9,241 bases of DNA. It comes from Oscillospiraceae bacterium (GTDB taxonomy: Bacteria; Bacillota_A; Clostridia; Oscillospirales; Oscillospiraceae). The DNA is taken from the NCBI GenBank assembly GCA_017381835.1, contig JAFOBK010000262.1, forward strand, positions 1 to 9,241, written 5' to 3'. The notes below the pieces were generated by a model, which saw nothing but the letters and a program-made list of their open reading frames with translations, did not search any database and was not told the origin of the DNA. Numbering within the stretch: the first letter of the stretch is position 1; every line of letters begins with the position of its first letter. Below are positions 1 through 9,241 of the stretch, piece after piece. Both the position numbers and the translations under genes were made by a program.

Positions 1-558
1 ACACCGCAAACACCAGAACTGATCTACTTATCCCCAGAGGCGGACAAGCTGTTAGAAGCATTTGCCGGTGAGGTGGAGTCCAAGCTGAAAAACGAATACT
101 CCGATATTCCGGATTGGGCAGGTAAGCTGGTAGGCGCTGTGCTGCGGATCTCCGGACTCCTATGCCGAGCTGCCAATGCCAAGTGTGCTGACTTTCTGGA
201 CATCCCGGAATCCACCATAGTTTCCCCAGAGCAGATGACGGGTGCCATTGCAATCGGTAGATATTTTACCGAACACGCTCGTGCAGCTTACTCCCTGATG
301 GGTGCCGACGATCTGATCAAGCAGAGTAAATATACGCTGGATGCCATCATTAAGAATGGCCTCACGGAATTTACCCGCCGGGATATTATGCGGATCTGTC
401 GAAGCTTCAAGAAAACAGAACAAGTGCAACCGGTGCTGAACCATCTGACAGACCTTGGCTATTTGGCTTTGAAGGAAGCTGAACAGCCTGCCGGTAAAGG
501 CAGACCCAACAATCCCGCTTATCTTGTTAACCCCCTGCTATACCGGGATGCTGCGTGA
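1..558 (+). CDS. DUF3987-type primase/helicase-like protein, C-terminal part (5' end outside window)
   Basis: The reading frame is open from the first base, so this is the last 185 residues of a longer protein. The visible part matches the C-terminal region of DUF3987 (YfjI-like) proteins, which are found in phages and integrative elements and are thought to act in element replication. A helical segment resembling the end of the ATPase-like domain (LVGAVLRISGLL, then MTGAIAIGRYFTEHA) is followed by a probable winged helix (about residues 105-180, with FTRRDIMRIC and VLNHLTDLGYL). A GTG at 73 is an internal codon, not a likely start. The stop is 7 bp before the left arm of a 26-bp inverted repeat, so expression or replication control may be linked to that repeat. 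The catalytic region is not visible. The family call rests on remembered sequence character, not on a search. Confidence 0.75.
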   Translation, partial: TPQTPELIYLSPEADKLLEAFAGEVESKLKNEYSDIPDWAGKLVGAVLRISGLLCRAANAKCADFLDIPESTIVSPEQMTGAIAIGRYFTEHARAAYSLMGADDLIKQSKYTLDAIIKNGLTEFTRRDIMRICRSFKKTEQVQPVLNHLTDLGYLALKEAEQPAGKGRPNNPAYLVNPLLYRDAA

Positions 559-842: not shown

Positions 843-1244
843 ATGAAAATCAAGCAGCTGATTCCTATCAGCAATGAGTATGCCGTCCTGGCTACTGACG
901 ATTACGACTACAAGCATATTTGCTATGACCGCAAGCTGGACGATGTGCATTTCTTCTGGGCTGTCCTGGATGGTGGCGAATATGAACATGATGCCATTGC
1001 ATTGATCCGGGTATCTGAAGATGGCAGCTATGAAATTTGCGAGCGCAACCTGGTGGTAGAACGGCAGGCCTGTCCCATCTGTGGGCAAAAGATGTTCCCC
1101 AAGCACAGTGAAAAGCATAACCCCACCTCCTGGCAGGATTGCGCAGGCTGCGGTTATCGGCTGGATACCAGCTATGATGCCAAGGACACTGCCGGTTCCA
1201 GAATACAGGAAATCATTCGAGGTCGTGAAGAAGATGATACCTGA
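843..1244 (+). CDS. Small zinc-ribbon protein of unknown function, 133 aa
   Basis: The ATG at 843 has a modest GAGG site (830-833) with a 9-base spacer. The N-terminal three quarters are acidic and rich in aromatic residues (for example DDYDYKHICYD), with no recognised fold. The C-terminal part has a four-cysteine zinc-binding pattern: C77-x2-C80 (CPIC) and C100-x2-C103 (CAGC), 19 residues apart. It probably binds zinc, and perhaps nucleic acid or a partner protein. No membrane segment or signal peptide is visible. It is the first gene after the inverted-repeat region, and its 3' end overlaps the next gene by 11 bp, suggesting translational coupling. It resembles the small accessory proteins common in Clostridia phages and integrative elements. 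I do not recognise a named family. Confidence 0.75.
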   Translation: MKIKQLIPISNEYAVLATDDYDYKHICYDRKLDDVHFFWAVLDGGEYEHDAIALIRVSEDGSYEICERNLVVERQACPICGQKMFPKHSEKHNPTSWQDCAGCGYRLDTSYDAKDTAGSRIQEIIRGREEDDT

Positions 1245-1476
1245 GGATCTGTCCCGGTATCTTTGGGAAGGCCTTGACCTAGATAGGTACTCCGTGGTGC
1301 GGATCGTACCGCAAGATAAAAATAATGCCGTTGTCATCATGTACAGCAACGACCCCGGTGATCCTCACTGGTGTTTGCAGTACAAAGGCAACGGCCATTA
1401 TTTTGCCACCGCCAAGGAACTGATGGACTACTATTGCAGCCGTGGTTTTAAGAAGCTGCACCTGCCGTACCTCTAA
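1234..1476 (+). CDS. Small protein of unknown function, 80 aa
   Basis: I place the start at ATG 1234, preceded by GAGG (1219-1222) with an 11-base spacer. The frame is open upstream to 1081, but that part lies entirely inside the zinc-ribbon gene and its composition (many Pro, Met and Ser) looks like an out-of-frame reading. The real part begins MIPEDLSRYLWEGLDLDRY and contains predicted strands (YSVVRIV, NAVVIMYS), a tryptophan-cysteine turn and a C-terminal helix (ATAKELMDYYCSRGFKKL). It is small, soluble and mixed in charge. The 11-bp overlap with the gene before it indicates co-translation. It ends one base before the G-rich packaging-type segment. No family recognised. Confidence 0.65.
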   Translation: MIPEDLSRYLWEGLDLDRYSVVRIVPQDKNNAVVIMYSNDPGDPHWCLQYKGNGHYFATAKELMDYYCSRGFKKLHLPYL

Positions 1477-1609
1477 CCCCCGGGAGGGGGGTGGGGGTGG
1501 TCAAATCTCTACGACTATTTTATCGGACAACGGGCCTGGGGTCGCGTGTGGAAAAACGGCGAAATCAAACCCGAAAATCTGAAAAATCAAACAGAAAGGA
1601 CGATGAACC
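1477..1609 (+). other. G-rich cos/pac-like segment upstream of small terminase
   Basis: This noncoding stretch starts with a run of C then long G runs (1477-1500), followed by TCAAATCTCTACGACTA, then a GGGCCTGGGGTCGCGTGTGG block and an A-rich tail up to the terS ribosome binding site. From memory, the same order (G-rich run, TCAAATCTCTA, CG-rich block with CGTGTG, AAAAA...GCGAAAT) recurs just upstream of P27-type small terminase genes in many Gram-positive phages, where the DNA packaging (cos) site is expected. This makes it a candidate packaging site. The cleavage position cannot be read from sequence. The G runs could also form a quadruplex or affect transcription. Confidence 0.45.
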
Positions 1610-2170
1610 ATGTCGAAAGACGGAACGAATCGTGGCGGAGCCCGTCCCGGAGCGGGCAGAAAACCCAAAGCGATCTCGGAGAAAATTGCATCCGGGAATC
1701 CCGGCGGCAGAAAACTGACGGTAGTGGACTTCGGAGACGAAGCCGAAAGCCTCACCGGAAGCATTATGCCCCCGGTAAAGGATTACCTCAAGGCAAAGCA
1801 GAAGGACGGCAGCGTCACCTGCGCCGAGGCAATCTACACGGAAACCTGGCAGTGGCTGCAGGAGCGCAAGTGCGATCAGCTGGTCACTACCCAACAAATC
1901 GAACAGTATGCCATGAGTGTGGCACGCTGGATCCAATGTGAAGAAGCGGTGTCTGAATTTGGCTTTCTTGCGAAGAAGCCTTCAGGCACCGTTATTTCAT
2001 CCCCTTATGTCACCATGGGCCGGGAGTATATGAAGCAGGCAAATGCCGCCTGGTTTCAAATCTACCAGATCGTGAAGGAAAACTGCGTGGCGGAGTTCAG
2101 TGGCAGAACTCCCCAGGACGATGCTATGGAGCGTTTGCTCCGTGCCCGTATGGGTCAAAAACATTATTAA
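1610..2170 (+). CDS. terS: Phage terminase small subunit, P27 family (186 aa)
   Basis: Small terminases bind the packaging site on phage DNA and recruit the large subunit (ATPase/nuclease) for loading DNA into the capsid. The N-terminus is a basic, glycine-rich DNA-binding tail (GGARPGAGRKPKA, about residues 9-21) followed by NPGGRKL, as is usual in the P27 (Terminase_4) family. The middle and C-terminal parts are helical (YTETWQWLQERK, QIEQYAMSVARWIQCEEA, YMKQANAAWFQIYQIVKENC). The length is normal for the family. ATG 1610 is preceded by GAAAGGA (1594-1600). The capsid gene starts 18 bp after the stop. No large terminase follows, which is abnormal for a complete phage but usual for phage satellites. 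The frame looks intact. Confidence 0.85.
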   Translation: MSKDGTNRGGARPGAGRKPKAISEKIASGNPGGRKLTVVDFGDEAESLTGSIMPPVKDYLKAKQKDGSVTCAEAIYTETWQWLQERKCDQLVTTQQIEQYAMSVARWIQCEEAVSEFGFLAKKPSGTVISSPYVTMGREYMKQANAAWFQIYQIVKENCVAEFSGRTPQDDAMERLLRARMGQKHY

Positions 2171-2188
2171 TTTTTGGAGGTATTTATT

Positions 2189-3220
2189 ATGAGCAATGTT
2201 AGAAACGCTGACGAGGCTATCCGTCGTCTGGAAGAGATGGAGGCACAGTGGAGTGGCAAGAAGGCCGATCCTTCTGCCGAGGCAAAGAAACAGGCTGCGG
2301 CTTACAACGCAGCATTCTGGGAGACCATGCACACCGGTATGCCCCAGAACAGTTTGAAGGCGGGCAGCGATGGTGCCGGCGGCTACCTGGTACCGGATAC
2401 ATACGAGGAGACCCTGGTGCAGGCGCTGACGGAGAAAAATGTATTCCGTCAGATCGCCAAGACCATTCCCACCACCCACCGGATGCATATCCCTGTTGCA
2501 AGCGGCGCAGGCTGCGCAGATTGGTTCCGGGAGGACGAAGGTTTGTCCTTTGTTGAAGAATCTTTTGGCGAGGTCATTCTGGACGCTTACAAGTTGAGCG
2601 CCTCTATCCTGGCTACAGATGAAATGCTGGAGGACAGCGCCATCGACTTGGAAGAGCATATCCGCACCTTCTTTGCCGAGCGCATCGGTGAAGCAGAAGA
2701 GGAGGCCTTTGTCCGGGGCAATGGCAAGGGTAAGCCTTTGGGTCTTATCTACCAGGCACCTATGGGTGCGATCTCCGAACTGGAGGGCGATATCACCCTG
2801 GATGACATTTTGAACCTGGAGTATTCCATCAAGCAGGCATACCGGGACAACGCAGTATGGTTGATGTCCGAAGATGCCTACCACAAGCTGCGCCGCATTC
2901 CTCACTATGACGGCAGACCTTTGTGGAATCCCAACCTGAAGGAAGGCGAACCGGAGTATTTGTTCGGCCACCGGATCTACATCTGTAAATCTATGGACGA
3001 TGTGACTCCCGGCAGCATCCCCGTGATGTTTGGCGACTTCAGATTCTTCTGGATCGGTGACCGGGGCAAGCGTGTCATCAAGCGCCTGGTGGAACGTTAT
3101 GCGGATCGTGGCCAGGTTGCTTTCATCACCACCGAGCGTGTGGATGCCAAGTTGGTAATGCCGGATGCCGTAAAGTATTTGAAGATCAATGGCAAGGCAC
3201 AAGCTGCCGCCGAAGAATAA
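2189..3220 (+). CDS. Phage major capsid protein, HK97 family (343 aa)
   Basis: This gene encodes the shell protein of an icosahedral phage head. I chose ATG 2189, with GGAGG at 2176-2180 and an 8-base spacer; an in-frame TTG at 2174 overlaps that site and is unlikely to be used. Residues 1 to about 57 form a short charged helical region (DEAIRRLEEMEAQW), followed by GSDGAGGYLVPDTYEE from residue 59, the typical start of the mature HK97 fold. Further HK97-like features are VASGAGCADWFREDEG, LDAYKLSASILATDEML, the E-rich helix EEAFVRGNGKGKPLGL and the C-terminal segment VFR-type FGDFRFFWIGDRGKRVIKRL. The N-terminal delta region is about half that of HK97 itself. No prohead protease or portal gene is present in the window. 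It probably forms an operon with terS. An encapsulin is a less likely alternative. Confidence 0.9.
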   Translation: MSNVRNADEAIRRLEEMEAQWSGKKADPSAEAKKQAAAYNAAFWETMHTGMPQNSLKAGSDGAGGYLVPDTYEETLVQALTEKNVFRQIAKTIPTTHRMHIPVASGAGCADWFREDEGLSFVEESFGEVILDAYKLSASILATDEMLEDSAIDLEEHIRTFFAERIGEAEEEAFVRGNGKGKPLGLIYQAPMGAISELEGDITLDDILNLEYSIKQAYRDNAVWLMSEDAYHKLRRIPHYDGRPLWNPNLKEGEPEYLFGHRIYICKSMDDVTPGSIPVMFGDFRFFWIGDRGKRVIKRLVERYADRGQVAFITTERVDAKLVMPDAVKYLKINGKAQAAAEE

Positions 3221-3285: not shown

Positions 3286-3657
3286 ATGAAACTGCAAGAT
3301 CAAATTGCCATTAACAATATGCGGCTGGAGGGACACAGTCCTTCCGAAATCGCAGCTAAGCTTGGACTATCTCCCAGCACCGTTCGTTCTCACATCCACC
3401 GCCACCGGCATATTCCCGGCACTAAGGCGTGCAAACATTGCGGACAGCCTTTGGTGCAACCTAAGGGATACCGGGAGAAGAAGTTCTGCTCAGACGCTTG
3501 CCGGATGGCTTGGTGGAACAGCCACAAAGAGGAAGTCAACAAGCAGGCCTTTTACACATTGACCTGCCAGCACTGCGGAAAGGAGTTTGATAGCTATGGA
3601 AATGCCAACCGAAAATACTGCTGCCGGACCTGCTACATTGCATCCCGACAGCCGTGA
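3286..3657 (+). CDS. HTH protein with two zinc knuckles (123 aa), putative regulator
   Basis: ATG 3286 follows GGAAGGAG (3271-3278) with good spacing; an upstream in-frame ATG at 3259 has no site and lies in the hairpin tail. Residues about 14-36 form a helix-turn-helix resembling sigma region 4 or LuxR/resolvase-type helices (EGHSPSEIAAKLGLSPSTVR). Two cysteine knuckles follow: C49-x2-C52...C68-x3-C72 and C94-x2-C97...C112-x3-C116, each with an FC/YC-type second half as in FCS/MYM-like fingers. Similar proteins in Clostridia elements are often labelled sigma-70-like. It most likely binds DNA and regulates the element or assists the recombinases encoded next to it. The next gene begins inside its 3' end (62-bp overlap). 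The function is inferred from motifs only. Confidence 0.75.
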   Translation: MKLQDQIAINNMRLEGHSPSEIAAKLGLSPSTVRSHIHRHRHIPGTKACKHCGQPLVQPKGYREKKFCSDACRMAWWNSHKEEVNKQAFYTLTCQHCGKEFDSYGNANRKYCCRTCYIASRQP

Positions 3658-3823
3658 TCAGTATGCCCCCGGCAATCTCATCCTTTACCGCACCTCCCTG
3701 GCGCTGTACCGAAACCTCAAAAACCAGGGTGTTTTCAACGACGAGGAGTATTGTCACATACGCACCATATTAACCAAAAAGTACGGCCTATCTTCGGATA
3801 GTATTTTCGCAGAATGTGCTTGA
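3596..3823 (+). CDS. Small SHOCT-like protein (75 aa)
   Basis: ATG 3596 has AAAGGAG (3579-3585) with a 10-base spacer, all inside the preceding gene, and overlaps that gene by 62 bp in another frame. The N-terminal 25 residues are unstructured. The C-terminal half (LALYRNLKNQGVFNDEEYCHIRTILTKKYG) has the helix, 'G-x-(I/F)-(T/N)-(E/D)-E-E-(Y/F)' turn and helix seen in short SHOCT-like proteins that often precede serine recombinases in Clostridia mobile elements. No catalytic residues or membrane segments are seen. It is probably an accessory or partner protein of the recombinases. Family assignment is tentative; the coding call rests on the good ribosome binding site and recognisable C-terminal half. 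Confidence 0.6.
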   Translation: MEMPTENTAAGPATLHPDSRDQYAPGNLILYRTSLALYRNLKNQGVFNDEEYCHIRTILTKKYGLSSDSIFAECA

Positions 3824-3882: not shown

Positions 3883-5163
3883 ATGAGAATCGTAACCCAG
3901 ACCCGTTTTCCAAAAGCGCAGCTTCCCAAGCTGACACGGGTCGCCGCCTATGCTCGTGTTTCCAGCGGCAAGGATGCGATGCTGCACTCGCTGTCCGCCC
4001 AGGTCAGTTACTACAGCGAACTGATACAAAACCATAGTGGCTGGCAGTATGTTGGTGTGTACGCAGACGAGGCACTGACCGGCACCAAGGACAACAGAGA
4101 AAACTTTCAGCGGCTGCTAGCGGATTGCAGAGCAGGCAAGGTGGATATGGTCATTACCAAGTCCATCTCCCGCTTTGCCCGCAATACCGTGACGCTGCTG
4201 GAGACAGTTCGTGAACTGAAAAACATGGGAGTGGATGTGTTCTTTGAGGAGCAGAACATCCACTCCCTTTCTGCTGACGGCGAACTGATGCTGACGATCC
4301 TGGCAAGTTATGCCCAAGAAGAAAGCCTCTCCGCCAGCGAAAACCAAAAGTGGCGAATCCGTCGCAACTTTGAAAACGGAATGCCCTGGAACGGGACGAT
4401 GCTTGGCTACCGATACGAAGACGGCACTTTAGTCGTTGAGCCAACAGAAGTAGAAATTGTCTGCCGGATATTTACGGAATACCTTGGAGGATTTGGAATG
4501 GCGGCCATTGCCAAGCGACTGAACGCAGACGGCATCCCCACGAGGTTTGGTAATGATTGGGGCAAGACCAGCGTTGGCAAGGTCCTTCAAAACTATGCAT
4601 ACACCGGAAACCTGCTTTTGCAAAAGTACAGACGGATGGATTACCTTACCAAGCGGGACGAGCCGAATAACGGAGAGTTGCCCAAGTACCATATCACCGA
4701 TGCCCACGAGGCAATCATCTCTCTGAGGTCGTTTAATGCTGTGCAGGAGGAAATGAAACGGCGGGCAGCAAAGCATACGCACCCCGGTGTGAAGCACAAA
4801 GAATATCCCTTCTCGGGAAAAATCACCTGCGCCGGGTGCGGAAAGCACTACCGCCGGAAGGTCAAGGAAACCGGCCCCGTTTGGATCTGCACGACTTACA
4901 ACACCTATGGCAAAACAGCCTGCCCCTCAAAGGCAATACCGGAGAGTATTTTAGAAGCCATTGCCGACGAGGTTGGCGGTATCGGTAAAATAACGGCTCT
5001 GCAAGCCTGCGAGGGCAACACCCTGGTACTTACCCTTACAAGCGGAGAACAAATCGTTAAACGGTGGCAAGACCGTTCCAGGCGGCAAAGCTGGACACCT
5101 GAAATGAAAGAAAAGGCGCGACAGAAAGATTTGGAAAGGAGGTCGCATCATGCAAGCACCTAA
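3883..5163 (+). CDS. Large serine recombinase 1, short form (426 aa)
   Basis: This is a site-specific recombinase of the serine integrase/TndX-like family, which cuts and rejoins att sites through a serine-DNA link. ATG 3883 has AAAGGAGG (3869-3876) with a 6-base spacer; an in-frame ATG at 3847 lacks one. The catalytic domain spans about residues 17-150: YARVSSG with probable nucleophile S27 and R25, SRFARN at 96-101, and the E-helix region QEESLSASEN. The recombinase domain (about 180-300) contains AIAKRLNADGIPT. The zinc ribbon uses C316, C319, C336 and C347. Unlike usual 500-residue-plus members, it has no long coiled-coil insert after the zinc ribbon and ends in a short basic tail (KRWQDRSRRQSWTPEMKEKAR). 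It overlaps the second recombinase by 14 bp, so the two are probably made together and may act as a pair. Confidence 0.92.
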   Translation: MRIVTQTRFPKAQLPKLTRVAAYARVSSGKDAMLHSLSAQVSYYSELIQNHSGWQYVGVYADEALTGTKDNRENFQRLLADCRAGKVDMVITKSISRFARNTVTLLETVRELKNMGVDVFFEEQNIHSLSADGELMLTILASYAQEESLSASENQKWRIRRNFENGMPWNGTMLGYRYEDGTLVVEPTEVEIVCRIFTEYLGGFGMAAIAKRLNADGIPTRFGNDWGKTSVGKVLQNYAYTGNLLLQKYRRMDYLTKRDEPNNGELPKYHITDAHEAIISLRSFNAVQEEMKRRAAKHTHPGVKHKEYPFSGKITCAGCGKHYRRKVKETGPVWICTTYNTYGKTACPSKAIPESILEAIADEVGGIGKITALQACEGNTLVLTLTSGEQIVKRWQDRSRRQSWTPEMKEKARQKDLERRSHHAST

Positions 5164-6745
5164 GAATATTACAGTGATTCCAGCAACCATCAATCCCGTT
5201 ACTCGGTTGCCGAAAGAATCCAAACAACTGCGCAGAGTGGCTGCTTATGCCCGTGTGTCCACGGACAGCGAAGAGCAGCTGACCAGTTACGAAGCGCAGG
5301 TGGATTACTACACCCGTTACATACAAGACAGACCGGATTGGGCATTCGTAGGCATCTATACCGACGAAGGCATCTCCGCCACCAATACAAAGCGCCGGGA
5401 AGGCTTCAACCGCATGGTGCAGGATGCCCTGGACGGCAAGATCGACCTTATTGTGACCAAGTCGGTTAGCCGCTTCGCAAGAAACACCGTAGACAGCCTC
5501 ACTACCGTCCGCAAGCTGAAGGATGCTGGTGTGGAGGTCTACTTTGAAAAGGAAAATATATGGACGCTGGACTCCAAAGGTGAGCTGCTCATTACAATTA
5601 TGAGTAGCCTTGCCCAGGAAGAGAGTCGATCAATTTCTGAAAATGTCACCTGGGGTCAGCGGAAGCGTTTTGCAGACGGCAAGGTCAGCATTCCTTACGG
5701 CCATTTCCTCGGCTACCGCAAAGGCACAAACGGCCTTCCGGAAATCGTACCGGAGGAAGCGGAGGTTGTTCGTACCATTTACCGGATGTTCATTGAGGGG
5801 CAATCCTCCAATGCCATTGCACGGCATTTAACGCAGCAAGGTATTCCTACTCCGGCAAAGAAAACCGTATGGCAAAAAGCTACGGTGGAGAGCATTCTCC
5901 GTAATGAAAAATATAAAGGTGCTGCCTTATTGCAGAAATCCTTTACAGTGGATTTCCTTCAGAAGAAAACGAAGGTCAACGAGGGCGAGGTGCCACAGTA
6001 CTATGTGGAACATAGCCACGAGGCAATTATTAAGCCAGCAGAGTGGGATAAGGTGCAATTGGAACTGGCACGACGGAAGAATAGCCCGCGGTACACGGTG
6101 TGCAATAGTCCCTTTGCCGGGAAAATCATCTGCGGAGATTGCGGGGAGATCTTCGGCTCAAAGGTATGGCACAGTACCAGCAAGTACCGCCGAACCATTT
6201 GGCGATGCAATGCCAAGTATGAAAGCGGTGACGCTTGCAGCACACCCCACCTTTACGAAGACGACCTGAAGCAGCATTTTATTACGGCGCTGAGCCAACT
6301 GCTCACCGACCGCACCGCCCTTTTGGAGGACGGCAGACTGATCCTAACCGACCTATTGGATACCGCTACCCTGGATGCAGACAGCAACAGAACACTGCAG
6401 GAGATGGATGTGGTAGCCGGGATGATTCGACAGATGGTGAACGAAAACGCAAACCAGGTAACCGACCAAACCGCCTATGCGGATCGGTACAATTCCCTGG
6501 TTGAACGATATGAAAAACTGCAGGCAGAATACGACGGTCTGCTCCATCAAAAGGAACGGCGGAAGATCCAAGCCGAGGCAATTGGTAGCTGCCTGGATGC
6601 CTTGGAGGCATTGGAGCTACCGCAGATAGCTTATACGGACAGCCTATGGAACACAGCGGTTGACCATGTGACGGTCTTTGCCGATGACCGTTTGGTGTTC
6701 CATTTCAAAAACGGCTCAGAAGTGGAGGTGAAGGTATGCAAGTGA
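5150..6745 (+). CDS. Large serine recombinase 2, full length (531 aa)
   Basis: Second serine integrase-type recombinase, with ATG 5150 and AAAGGAGG (5135-5142) inside the end of the first. The catalytic domain has YARVSTD (R35, nucleophile S37), SRFARN at 107-112 and QEESRSISEN. The recombinase domain includes AIARHLTQQGIPTPAKK and VESILRNEKYKG. The zinc ribbon cysteines are C328, C331, C353 and C363. A coiled-coil region (about residues 405-490, for example YNSLVERYEKLQAEYDGLL) follows, which in this family controls synapsis and direction. The C-terminal WNTAVDHVTVFADDRLVFHFKNG is the usual end of this group. Full length and all motifs indicate an active enzyme. It overlaps the DUF4314 gene by 10 bp. 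The element's integration and excision most likely depend on this protein, alone or with recombinase 1. Confidence 0.95.
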   Translation: MQAPKNITVIPATINPVTRLPKESKQLRRVAAYARVSTDSEEQLTSYEAQVDYYTRYIQDRPDWAFVGIYTDEGISATNTKRREGFNRMVQDALDGKIDLIVTKSVSRFARNTVDSLTTVRKLKDAGVEVYFEKENIWTLDSKGELLITIMSSLAQEESRSISENVTWGQRKRFADGKVSIPYGHFLGYRKGTNGLPEIVPEEAEVVRTIYRMFIEGQSSNAIARHLTQQGIPTPAKKTVWQKATVESILRNEKYKGAALLQKSFTVDFLQKKTKVNEGEVPQYYVEHSHEAIIKPAEWDKVQLELARRKNSPRYTVCNSPFAGKIICGDCGEIFGSKVWHSTSKYRRTIWRCNAKYESGDACSTPHLYEDDLKQHFITALSQLLTDRTALLEDGRLILTDLLDTATLDADSNRTLQEMDVVAGMIRQMVNENANQVTDQTAYADRYNSLVERYEKLQAEYDGLLHQKERRKIQAEAIGSCLDALEALELPQIAYTDSLWNTAVDHVTVFADDRLVFHFKNGSEVEVKVCK

Positions 6746-6966
6746 TAAAGGATTGGCAGCTGAAACAACTGCGTGAGGAGTATCCGGTCGGCACACGGGT
6801 GGAACTGATCTACATGAACGATCCCTCCAACCGCAAGCTGGTCCCCGGCTGCCAAGGCACTGTCCGCTGGGTGGACGATATGGGTACGATCCACGTCAGC
6901 TGGGATTGTGGCTCCAGCCTGGGCCTCATCCCCGGCGAGGATGCCTTCAAAAAGATAACCAAATAG
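6736..6966 (+). CDS. DUF4314 protein (76 aa)
   Basis: ATG 6736 has GGAGG (6724-6728) with a 7-base spacer and overlaps recombinase 2 by 10 bp. The sequence matches the DUF4314 pattern: VGTRVELIYMNDP, then PGCQGTVRWVDDMGTIHVSWDCGSSLGLIPGEDAF, a small beta-barrel-like fold rich in Gly, Val and Trp. The biochemical role of DUF4314 is not established as far as I know. Its constant place directly after serine recombinases and tight translational coupling suggest a role in recombination, mobilisation or their control, for instance as a partner that sets the direction of recombination. This is inference only. Confidence 0.85.
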   Translation: MQVIKDWQLKQLREEYPVGTRVELIYMNDPSNRKLVPGCQGTVRWVDDMGTIHVSWDCGSSLGLIPGEDAFKKITK

Positions 6967-6982
6967 CACCCACAACGAAGAA

Positions 6983-7020
6983 GCCTCACACCCGGCAACC
7001 CCAGGTGTGAGGCATTTTCT
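6983..7020 (+). terminator. Rho-independent terminator after DUF4314
   Basis: A perfect 10-bp stem, GCCTCACACC (6983-6992) with GGTGTGAGGC (7004-7013), has an 11-base loop and is followed by ATTTTCT. It lies 16 bp after the DUF4314 stop and closes the element operon. It may also work in reverse for the kinase gene, whose stop is at 7076, because the opposite strand past the stem reads TTCTTCGTT, though that tail is weaker. Confidence 0.88.
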
Positions 7021-7033
7021 ATTCAGGCCCATT

Positions 7034-7099
7034 AATTGCAATGTTCTGTCGGAACAATTCATAAACAGTAAAACATCAGTTTGTTGATTCTGTACTGCC
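7034..7099. other. Candidate right attachment-site region of the element
   Basis: This stretch lies between the last element gene and the body of the kinase gene and contains TGTTC-TGTCG-GAACA (7042-7056), flanked by AATTG (7034-7038) and CAATT (7055-7059), and ATCA-GTTTGT-TGAT (7075-7088). Serine integrase att sites are imperfect inverted repeats of about 40-60 bp around a 2-bp core. The altered kinase C-terminus places the likely crossover near codons at 7091-7099. The exact core cannot be read without the left end or an empty site. Confidence 0.4.
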
Positions 7100-7627
7100 A
7101 AAAGCATCAAAGTAGCGATTTTCCATAGGAATCCAATCCTCAAAGAACCGTTTATGAAGAAATGCCGGGCGCTCCAGTATTCTCCTCCGCTGGGTTTCTT
7201 CGTCTACAGTCAGCATGATCTTCAAATCGTAGGGGTTACCGAAATAGGGATGGTGGCTATAAGTGCCTTCTATGATGTTCAGCTTTTTGGGAGCAACAGT
7301 AACCGGTGCAGATAGGGTAAAAGTGCTGCAATCAAAGGGGCGGTAAGAAAAAGCTTTTCCGGATTTCAGCGGAAGCAGCACTTCCTCCTGGAATCGTTCG
7401 TAGTCCACATTGCCTCCAACCTCTGCAAATCGCTCCGGTGTTCGCTGTTCCGGACGGAGAAAGAAGTCATCCATGTGAAATACATTGCAGTCATAGATCT
7501 CTGCTAGTTTGGAAGCTAGGGTAGTCTTGCCGGAAGTACATTTACCATCGATAGCAACAATCACTAAATTGTTTTCCTCTAGCAATGTATCAATCTGCTT
7601 TTTCAACATTCCCAATATTATATTCAT
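7076..7627 (-). CDS. Uridine kinase-like P-loop kinase (183 aa) with atypical C-terminus
   Basis: Probable nucleoside kinase of the uridine kinase/PRK family, phosphorylating uridine or a related substrate with a nucleoside triphosphate in the cytoplasm. The ATG at 7627 (read leftwards) has GGGAGGT just upstream; an in-frame ATG at 7651 lies upstream of that site and is less likely. Walker A is at residues 28-35 (GKCTSGKT), a magnesium/substrate motif HMDDFFLRPEQRTPER at 51-66, then GGNVDYERF, SYRPFDC and IEGTYSHHP. RRRILERPAFLHKRFFEDWIPMENRYF is the usual lid/C-terminal region. Relatives, as I recall them, continue after 'RYFxAF' with an IRxKCDL-like tail, whereas here the protein ends GSTESTN. 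This suggests that the last residues come from inserted element DNA. The kinase core is complete. Its promoter is divergent from the downstream transporter gene. The exact substrate is uncertain. Confidence 0.85.
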   Translation of the reverse strand: MNIILGMLKKQIDTLLEENNLVIVAIDGKCTSGKTTLASKLAEIYDCNVFHMDDFFLRPEQRTPERFAEVGGNVDYERFQEEVLLPLKSGKAFSYRPFDCSTFTLSAPVTVAPKKLNIIEGTYSHHPYFGNPYDLKIMLTVDEETQRRRILERPAFLHKRFFEDWIPMENRYFDAFGSTESTN

Positions 7628-7652
7628 ACGGCTACCTCCCAGCATTTCCACT

Positions 7653-7893: not shown

Positions 7894-9241
7894 ATGAAGA
7901 AACTTTTTGCACTGCTTCTGGCTGCCCTTATGGTGGTTTCTATGTTCGCAGGCTGCGGAACCGAAGAGAAAAAGTCTACCCTGGTCTACGGTTCCGGCGA
8001 CTACGATTCCATCAACCCCATTATGAACGAGCACTGTGAGATCAAGCATCTGCTGTTCGACTCCCTGGTGAAGCTGGATAAAGACGGCAAGCCCGTGGCA
8101 AGCCTGGCTGAGAGCTGGACCTATGACGATGCCACTCTCACCTACACCTTCAAGCTCCGCAGCGATGTGAAGTGGCATGACGGTGAGAAGTTCACCGCTG
8201 ACGATGTCAAGTTCACCATCGAAGCCATCATGAATCCCGACAACGGTTCCGAGAACTACCCCAACTACATCGAGATCAAGGAAATTAAGGTCAACTCCGA
8301 TACCGAGATCGCATTCGTTCTGTCCGAGCCCAACTACGCATTCCTGGACTACATGACCATGTCCATCCTGCCCGAGCACAAGCTCCAGGGCGAGGATATG
8401 TGGGAATCCGATTATTTCAAGAACCCCATCGGCACCGGCCCCTACAAGCTGGAAAGCTGGGATGTTGGTCAGGCTATCACCATGGTGAAGAATGAAGAGT
8501 ACTTCGGCGGCGCTGCCAAGATCAACACCATCATCTTCAAGATCGTCACCGACGACAACGCCAAGGCCCTGCAGCTGAAGGAGGGCACTCTGGATCTGGC
8601 ACAGGTCACTCCTAAGGATGCCCAGAACTTCAAGGACTCCAAGGATCTGACCATCTACGATATGGCTACTGCTGACTACCGTGGTATCCTCTACAACTTC
8701 TGGAATCCCTACTGGCAGGAAAACGGCGATCTGATCCCCGCAATCAGCTACTGCATCGACCGCCAGGCCATCGTGGATGCGGTCCTGCTGGGCGAAGGCT
8801 TCGTGGCTTACAGCCCCATTCAGCTCAACGAGTACAACTACGACGGTGTAGAGAAGTACGACTTTGATCTCGCCAAGGCAGAAGCTGCATTCGTCGCTGC
8901 TGGTTGCGAGAAGGATGCAGAGGGCTACTGGTGCAGAAATGGTGAGCGTATTTCCTTCACCATCAACGCAACTCCCGGTGATCAGGTCCGTATCGATATG
9001 GCTCAGATCGCTGCTCAGCAGCTCCAGGAGGCTGGTCTGGATGTAAAGGCTAATGTTCCCGCTGACGGCATTGACTGGGGCGGACAGGAATGCTGCATCA
9101 TCGGCTGGGGTTCTCCCTACGATGCTGACGACCACACCTACAAGGTCTTCTCCACCGATGCAGGCGCTAACTACTCCGGTTACTCCAACGCAGAAGTTGA
9201 CCAGTGGCTGAAGAAGGCTCGTCAGACCGACGATCCTGCCG
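7894..9241 (+). CDS. ABC transporter family 5 substrate-binding lipoprotein (3' end outside window)
   Basis: Membrane-anchored extracellular binding protein of a peptide, nickel or similar ABC importer (SBP_bac_5 family). ATG 7894 has an AAAGGA site (7877-7882). Residues 1-21 are a lipoprotein signal peptide with lipobox FAGC and lipidated C21. The mature part starts with STLVYGSGDYDSINPI and has the family hallmarks: SLAESWTYDD, YTFKLRSDVKWHDGEKFTADDVKFTIEAIM near residues 87-118, NPIGTGPYKLESW, then AISYCIDRQAIVDAVL and DFDLAKAEAAF. The 449 codons seen are intact; the family is usually 500-600 residues, so the rest lies beyond the window, probably followed by permease and ATPase genes. Codons end strongly in C or G, as in highly expressed chromosomal genes and unlike the element to the left. 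The transported substrate cannot be told from this sequence. Confidence 0.93.
   Translation, partial: MKKLFALLLAALMVVSMFAGCGTEEKKSTLVYGSGDYDSINPIMNEHCEIKHLLFDSLVKLDKDGKPVASLAESWTYDDATLTYTFKLRSDVKWHDGEKFTADDVKFTIEAIMNPDNGSENYPNYIEIKEIKVNSDTEIAFVLSEPNYAFLDYMTMSILPEHKLQGEDMWESDYFKNPIGTGPYKLESWDVGQAITMVKNEEYFGGAAKINTIIFKIVTDDNAKALQLKEGTLDLAQVTPKDAQNFKDSKDLTIYDMATADYRGILYNFWNPYWQENGDLIPAISYCIDRQAIVDAVLLGEGFVAYSPIQLNEYNYDGVEKYDFDLAKAEAAFVAAGCEKDAEGYWCRNGERISFTINATPGDQVRIDMAQIAAQQLQEAGLDVKANVPADGIDWGGQECCIIGWGSPYDADDHTYKVFSTDAGANYSGYSNAEVDQWLKKARQTDDPA

Follow-up and report, generated by a model that had tools for sequence, protein, structure and literature searches.

The stretch of DNA analysed here (the window, 9,241 nucleotides, contig JAFOBK010000262.1 of an Oscillospiraceae bacterium) probably holds most of a cos-type satellite of gut Clostridia, which would exploit Heliusvirales-type siphoviruses and use a capsid switch like that of Ccm, the capsid homologue of the staphylococcal island SaPIbov5. 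Based on sequence comparison, we give this reading a probability of about 0.8. That the element is a satellite of Heliusvirales-type phages is very likely, and that its capsid protein works in a Ccm-like manner is fairly likely.

Gene content of the window

The genes and the packaging site of the element were read on the plus strand. The window edge cuts the first gene, and the element lies only partly inside the window: positions 1..558 encode the C-terminal part of a DUF3987 protein of the replication primase/helicase type (PF13148, E 5.9e-17; phrog_2373 DNA helicase, E 8e-12), with 97% identity across 184 residues to a 781-aa protein of the related locus L010. From this DUF3987/phrog_2373 family match it is the predicted replication-type protein of the element. 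Two small genes follow, an accessory zinc-motif protein found in some relatives (orf843, 843..1244; matches to Lar and similar proteins all below threshold) and orf1231 (1234..1476, start read from the sequence), which has no family match and recurs 5′ of terS or the capsid gene in many relatives. A cos-like packaging site (1490..1570, function inferred), terS (1610..2170) and an HK97-type capsid gene whose N-terminal delta (scaffold) region is mostly missing (2189..3220) come next. Downstream are an HTH/zinc protein (3286..3657; phrog_2308, E 1.4e-37; the same block is present in phages), a small SHOCT-domain protein (SHOCT_2, 3587..3823; PF20612, E 2e-7), two large serine recombinases, rec1 (3883..5163) and rec2 (5150..6745), each matching PF00239, PF07508, PF13408 and phrog_95 integrase, and a DUF4314 protein (6736..6966; PF14192, E 2e-29), which is also found between terS and terL in several phages. 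The final segment, 6967..7071, is shared with the related element L042, whose similarity ends at 7071. Beyond this point were a kinase-like gene (7076-7651, minus strand) and a solute-binding-protein-like gene (7894-9241), both named from their translations only.

The first-pass annotation had described an intact terS and an intact capsid gene 18 bp apart, each with a good ribosome binding site, followed by HTH/zinc and recombinase genes and no other structural gene. The stop-to-ATG gap is indeed 18 bp and both genes are intact; for the capsid gene the ribosome binding site was confirmed, with GGAGG standing ahead of the ATG at 2189, and an alternative start is possible at TTG 2174, 15 bp upstream. 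Among the 10 window proteins scanned against Pfam, PHROG and NCBIfam, no structural gene was found besides terS and the capsid gene, and the downstream genes were as described.

The gene string recurs in divergent relatives

A search for the gene string, as the first-pass annotation had proposed, found it in divergent relatives: DUF3987, optional terS, optional capsid, HTH-zinc, SHOCT and two serine recombinases. The capsid search returned 39 loci, 6 from genomes and 33 from viral contigs. Those of L001-L004 and L007-L024 had capsids 53-78% identical and carried the gene string to the extent that their contigs cover it, and the remaining loci had distant capsids (22-29% identity). The TerS search returned 65 loci, satellites and phages both. 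Both genes were present in the window, L008/L010/L012, the L015 group, L020, L042, L055 and L056; terS alone in L043-L047 and L052-L054; the capsid gene alone in L001, L003, L004, L018, L021, L024 and others; and neither in L185 and L205. The terS-only and capsid-only forms were scattered across the trees, a pattern suggestive of modules gained or lost more than once.

In whole-record searches, TerL_ATPase, Phage_portal and CLP_protease were found in 0/20 satellite records, which may be fragments (the largest 29 kb), and all three were found in both phage controls. Thus terL, portal and protease were seen neither at the terS-capsid junction of close relatives nor elsewhere in their records. 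The possibility that these genes lie left of the window was rejected, as they were absent from the left flanks of the relatives. The PF04586 protease search gave no match, both phage controls included. Tail reference proteins had no match in the satellite relatives checked.

PICI-like satellites in the broad sense have their own integrase and replication protein, a divergent regulator and an excisionase-type gene, and no full complement of head and tail genes. In the window the two serine recombinases would be the integrase and the DUF3987 protein the replication protein. Counterparts of the regulator and the excisionase-type gene were seen only in relatives, at positions that fall left of the window: a phrog_8 regulator in L001 (5756-6214, minus strand) and an HTH/excisionase-type gene in L010 (219-443; phrog_66, E 1.8e-4). 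Left of the regulator, defence genes were observed in four relatives, namely DruC/DruD-like genes of Druantia in L001 (247-4968), a type I methyltransferase in L015 (1382-2974), AbiEi/AbiEii in L020 (3599-5130) and MzaB with a type II methyltransferase in L024 (335-3988). These genes are likely to be inside the element.

At the right end, a hairpin 3′ of the recombinases was common to 9/29 satellite sequences (the window, which lacks it, is counted among the 29): L001, L003, L004, L009, L020, L022, L042, L043 and L054. The hairpin stood at the 3′ end of a called tRNA in six of them (Met in L001 and L003; Leu in L004, L042 and L043; Arg in L054). The bases after it resemble a tRNA 3′ end in L009 and L020, and L022 diverges after 16 bases. 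If the serine recombinases are responsible, tRNA 3′ ends are an unusual target. The left end was sought through a repeat of the tRNA end, and none was found.

A capsid protein with a largely missing delta region

The capsid protein (343 aa) covers the full PF05065 profile (1-280 of 280, E 6.2e-63) and matches TIGR01554 (E 1.4e-81). Against 50,697 phage records it gave 504 matches, none at 60% identity or above, the best (40-43%) being to phages of the 'Ca. Heliusvirales' kind. The AlphaFold model was of moderate quality (pLDDT 72.8, pTM 0.66). Its fold matches were HK97-type capsids, the first being 6tb9 (gene transfer agent), with EcCI2 (9gyi) at rank 11 and SaPIbov5 at rank 22.

The number of residues ahead of the GGYLVP anchor was 62-68 in 19/19 satellite capsids, compared with 121-141 in 15/16 phage capsids, the remaining one lacking the exact motif. 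The satellite protein is therefore about 60 residues shorter in its N-terminal region, and the absent part is the charged N-terminal region at the position of the delta scaffold in HK97-type phages. A similarly short leader (60-63 residues) was found in 116 of the best 120 of 1,232 database homologues, the other 4 being without the exact motif. The capsids of a further group of relatives (L186, L191, L200, L204 and L207) start almost at a shared Y..FW motif and, where complete (L191, L204, L207), are 305-315 aa long. The main satellite capsids formed one clade with 100/100 support on a long stem. The test of separate origins of the two short-capsid lineages gave an AU p of 0.354.

Capsid dN/dS was 0.055-0.231 in the 27/55 pairs that gave an estimate, dS being saturated in many, and TerS dN/dS was 0.04-0.20 in 5/6 pairs of relatives. 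With these low values, terS and the capsid gene both look to be under selection in the relatives.

TerS and its phage counterparts

TerS, a 186-aa ORF of the P27/phrog_83 type, matched PF05119 above the cut-off (E 2.8e-7) and phrog_83 (E 1.9e-30), and fell below the cut-off of the NCBIfam P27 model (18.8 of 45.6 bits). The 50,697 phage records held 32 matches, with 46-60% identity among the 25 matches listed; many were the same phages as for the capsid, and streptococcal phages were added. Identity was 59-60% to L100 and L101. In the tree, satellite TerS proteins formed one clade (support 100), and residues 101-186 were on the whole nearer to phage TerS than residues 26-100.

The closest phages were 'Ca. 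Heliusvirales' and their kin. The first-pass annotation had given the order terS, terL, portal, protease, capsid for phages. In the closest phages terS does not adjoin terL: it stood about 3-10 kb upstream of terL in 11/12 annotated records, the twelfth (L109) being cut before terL. In the more distant relatives L095-L097 and L099 terS is directly before terL. One phage, L100 (Oscillospirales phage IMGVR 15609780), has counterparts of seven window genes (TerS 59% identity, DUF4314 64%, rec1 53%, rec2 54%, SHOCT 43%, HTH-zinc 32% and capsid 38-40%) and also encodes TerL, portal, protease and tail proteins. In other phage contigs (e.g. L193, L214, L256, L260) the HTH-zinc/SHOCT/recombinase block was found 3′ of tail genes.

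In sum, the Heliusvirales phages (L100, L101 and others) share terS, capsid, packaging site and DUF4314 with the satellite, and L100 also the HTH-zinc/SHOCT/recombinase block, which makes them the source or a cousin of the shared genes. In contrast to the satellite, they are complete phages of 47-90 kb (terS-bearing records) in which terL, portal, protease and tail genes are all present, and their capsid delta region is about 60 residues longer.

A putative cos-like packaging site is shared with the phages

A conserved block was present in the gap before terS of the phages. HNH proteins have a role at cos sites in Gram-positive phages, and an HNH gene was named just upstream of terS in 8/12 annotated phage records. 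A site profile was built from 18 phage terS-upstream sequences only and scanned over 1.53 Mb of loci; a 19th sequence, from L106, was dropped as it did not contain the block. L106 thus has a phage terS with no site, and in L062 and L063 the site was only weak. With this phage-only model, nhmmer found a single match in the window (1490-1570, E 3.4e-17, 63 bits), immediately 5′ of terS, compared with 9.6 bits for the best match in three shuffles. The site is called cos because of its position before terS, and this function is inferred. Record ends, as proof of cos, were also considered, and the site was at the record end in none of 15 phage records.

Most satellites have the site ahead of terS, or ahead of the capsid gene if terS is absent, and it was retained in relatives without terS, without the capsid gene or without both. 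A score of at least 17 bits was reached in 22/26 non-redundant elements (9/11 with terS, 13/15 without), where the grouping was by judgement and truncated loci (e.g. L022, L194, L204) were not counted. L003, L018, L044 and L280 gave no site match at the thresholds used, and L055 just 15 bits. In a smaller set, site scores of terS-less and terS-bearing elements differed with a one-sided p of 0.007 for matched elements only and 0.10 for all; with more loci, non-matching ones included, the two-sided p was 0.08, and a more phage-like site in terS-less elements is not claimed.

The arrangement of the site was variable. L185 (4944-5375) and L205 (3049-3969), which have neither terS nor capsid, retain it before the HTH-zinc gene. 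Two tandem copies were seen in L001 (9782-9959), one direct and one inverted copy each in L021 (6773-6948) and L024 (9789-9960), and two copies in L274 (8065-9474) and L281 (7684-9088); among these five loci the copies lie before the capsid start or flank the capsid gene. In L191, L200, L187 and L198 the site is inverted and 3′ of the capsid gene.

Short-capsid loci and candidate helpers in bacterial genomes

Two sets of bacterial genomes (150 and 200, together 350) were searched for capsid matches. The main satellite capsid was rare, being found in 3/200 and 1/150 genomes. Twelve short-capsid loci were compared, comprising short frames of at least 26% identity plus one of the main type, with contig-edge fragments (such as G183, G231 and G252:C31) left out. 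The comparison set was 8 delta-bearing loci, including L282, which was fetched as a short-capsid locus and has a short frame, but one with a delta region and beside terL, portal and protease. The site was found within about 0.7 kb of the capsid gene in 11/12 short-capsid loci versus 0/8 delta-bearing loci (p 7e-5); the site model had been fixed beforehand from phages only, and for 6/12 short-capsid loci shorter stretches had already shown the site. The 0/8 result is expected because the phage site is at terS. In the fetched stretches terL, portal and protease were present in 0/12 short-capsid and 8/8 delta-bearing loci.

The window's recombinase pair was replaced by a single distant recombinase (22-26% to rec2) in L274-L277, L279 and L281, and by a distant pair (41-42%) in L273. 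Therefore, as judged from these loci, the shared core is the site together with the short capsid. The capsids of L271-L281 (in G106, G045, G088, G007, G108, G064, G056, G003, G196, G280 and G206) had practically no delta region; 10/11 of these loci were beside a cos-like site, and several had other recombinases.

Helper-type TerL, defined as at least 55% identity to L100 and at least 150 bits (limits chosen after the lists had been seen), was found in 31/350 genomes: 5/14 satellite carriers (G003, G004, G056, G064, G196) versus 26/336 others (Fisher p 0.0045, uncorrected for kinship, genome quality and mobile-element load). It was not found in 9/14 carrier genomes. The prophages of G056 and G064 had TerL, portal, protease, a full-length capsid and, ahead of terS, the site. 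The G196 prophage had the genes from TerL to capsid, and terS and the site were looked for and not found. The G004 prophage had the site, terS and TerL, but the 20 kb after them gave no match to portal or capsid, and that of G003 was of another packaging type, with terS adjoining terL and no such site. G002, outside the 350, contained truncated fragments of a terL and a terS of similar kind. A helper prophage with matching genes, which the first-pass annotation had proposed to look for, was thus found in part: related terL, portal, capsid, terS and site exist and TerL is commoner in carriers, but only G056 and G064 of the five have head genes and the site.

That the satellite site best matches that of the co-resident helper had no support in G056, G064 or G004. 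G003 contains a main-type satellite without the site (L003), an interrupted short-capsid copy with the site (L278) and the other-type prophage (L118). Sharing of packaging DNA between L003 and this prophage was rejected, as there were just capsid-gene matches and one weak 47-base match.

Comparison with known satellites

As described for SaPIbov5, Ccm is a protein of 355 aa whose delta domain has 87 residues versus 128 in the helper (PMC8569155), 44 residues shorter according to models (PMC5052747). It is reported as the only SaPIbov5 protein required for size redirection, is incorporated in the shell and forms no capsid alone, and the island bears its helper's cos site (PMC8569155). The window resembles SaPIbov5 and the cos-type SaPIs in having a capsid homologue whose delta region is shortened (by about 60 residues here and by about 41-44 in Ccm), in carrying a phage site, here putatively cos, and in its candidate helper, which would likewise be a cos phage that has a delta-domain capsid (PMC8569155, PMC5052747). 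On the other hand, the window has terS, which SaPIbov5 does not have (nor do the relatives L001, L021 and L024), as well as two serine recombinases and DUF3987, and the carriers seen are Clostridia. The capsid lineages also differ: the window capsid is nearest to Heliusvirales-type capsids, and the Ccm chain was absent among the 29 PDB sequences that matched it at E 0.01, whereas the helper capsid of the same entry (7rwz_B) was matched.

With pac-type SaPIs and other PICIs the window shares an own TerS that would redirect the helper TerL and a small island without a head gene set, but these islands are described as switching size with CpmAB or Rcm, neither of which is related to Ccm by sequence (PMC5052747, PMC12409344). 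Like cfPICIs such as EcCI2, which is among the fold matches, it encodes an HK97-type capsid protein; cfPICIs, however, are described as building their own capsids (PMC11389934), and portal, protease and terL were not found here. PmCI172 and EcCICFT073 are reported as PICIs with a capsid homologue, the latter with two cos sites, but they have Gram-negative hosts and EcCICFT073 is described as packaged in full-sized capsids; both were compared by description (PMC6092414). Titles and abstracts, with subscription papers and bioRxiv largely outside this coverage, held no description of the present satellite family.

Discussion

In the proposed mechanism, when a helper is active the element would excise via its serine recombinases and replicate with the DUF3987 protein. 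Its TerS, or the helper TerS in terS-less relatives, would bring the helper TerL to the cos-like site. The short capsid protein would mix with helper capsid protein to give a shell too small for the helper genome and fitting the satellite, and the helper portal, protease and tail would finish the particle. The first-pass annotation had likewise proposed a satellite-type element that redirects packaging and supplies its own shell protein. Its first part is supported by the recurrent string, the absence of terL, portal and protease and the related helpers, with redirection as the predicted step. Its second part stands in that an HK97-type capsid is encoded; because most of the scaffold region is absent, however, mixing with helper capsid is likelier than a self-sufficient shell.

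A complete shell made of the satellite's own capsid protein, with the helper contributing no more than portal, protease, terL and tail, is unlikely. In favour of such a shell, the HK97-fold domain is complete in an intact capsid gene, and cfPICIs are reported to make their own capsids (PMC11389934), but the assembly scaffold is largely missing, portal and protease genes are absent, and Ccm, similarly shortened, is described as forming no capsid alone (PMC8569155). It is somewhat less likely still that the capsid and terS serve mainly as an anti-phage weapon that poisons helper assembly and packaging while the element moves otherwise, e.g. by general transduction. Such a role would fit the defence genes (Druantia-like, MzaB, AbiE, type I methyltransferase) on the left side of four relatives and the report that Ccm expressed alone lowers helper titre 10^3-10^4-fold (PMC5052747). 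A phage packaging site would be superfluous for a pure weapon, yet it is kept in L185 and L205, which have neither gene.

We consider it very improbable that the window is a prophage remnant which lost the terL-to-protease and tail genes and kept terS and capsid by chance. The phage-like genes do resemble one phage group, and L100 has homologues of terS, DUF4314, the capsid, HTH-zinc, SHOCT, rec1 and rec2. Against this, the arrangement is repeated in divergent relatives as one clade with a long stem, frames are intact, dN/dS is low, the junction is conserved, and the same N-terminal part of the capsid was lost in 19/19 copies. A single recent prophage deletion, the alternative that the first-pass annotation had named, is therefore excluded by conservation, selection and the shared capsid shortening. 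An ancient prophage origin with a later new lifestyle is possible.

The Ccm-like satellite reading bears on a known strategy. How a satellite can use a capsid protein against its helper has been worked out for Ccm of SaPIbov5, and the same design would now be present in other bacteria, in another capsid lineage and in many copies, several with varied defence genes adjoining. Heliusvirales-type phages are indicated as concrete candidate helpers, and a short capsid beside a cos-like site may be a handle for satellites that tools based on staphylococcal or enterobacterial genes may miss. At about even odds, these elements represent a broad class of gut-Clostridia satellites whose core is a phage cos site and a scaffold-less capsid, with at least two capsid lineages, varied recombinase modules and optional terS; removal of the scaffold would then be a general, perhaps repeatedly evolved, route to shell shrinking beyond one staphylococcal island. 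Comparison of the natural variants, with terS only, capsid only, both or neither and the site mostly kept, would allow the roles of terS, capsid and site to be told apart.
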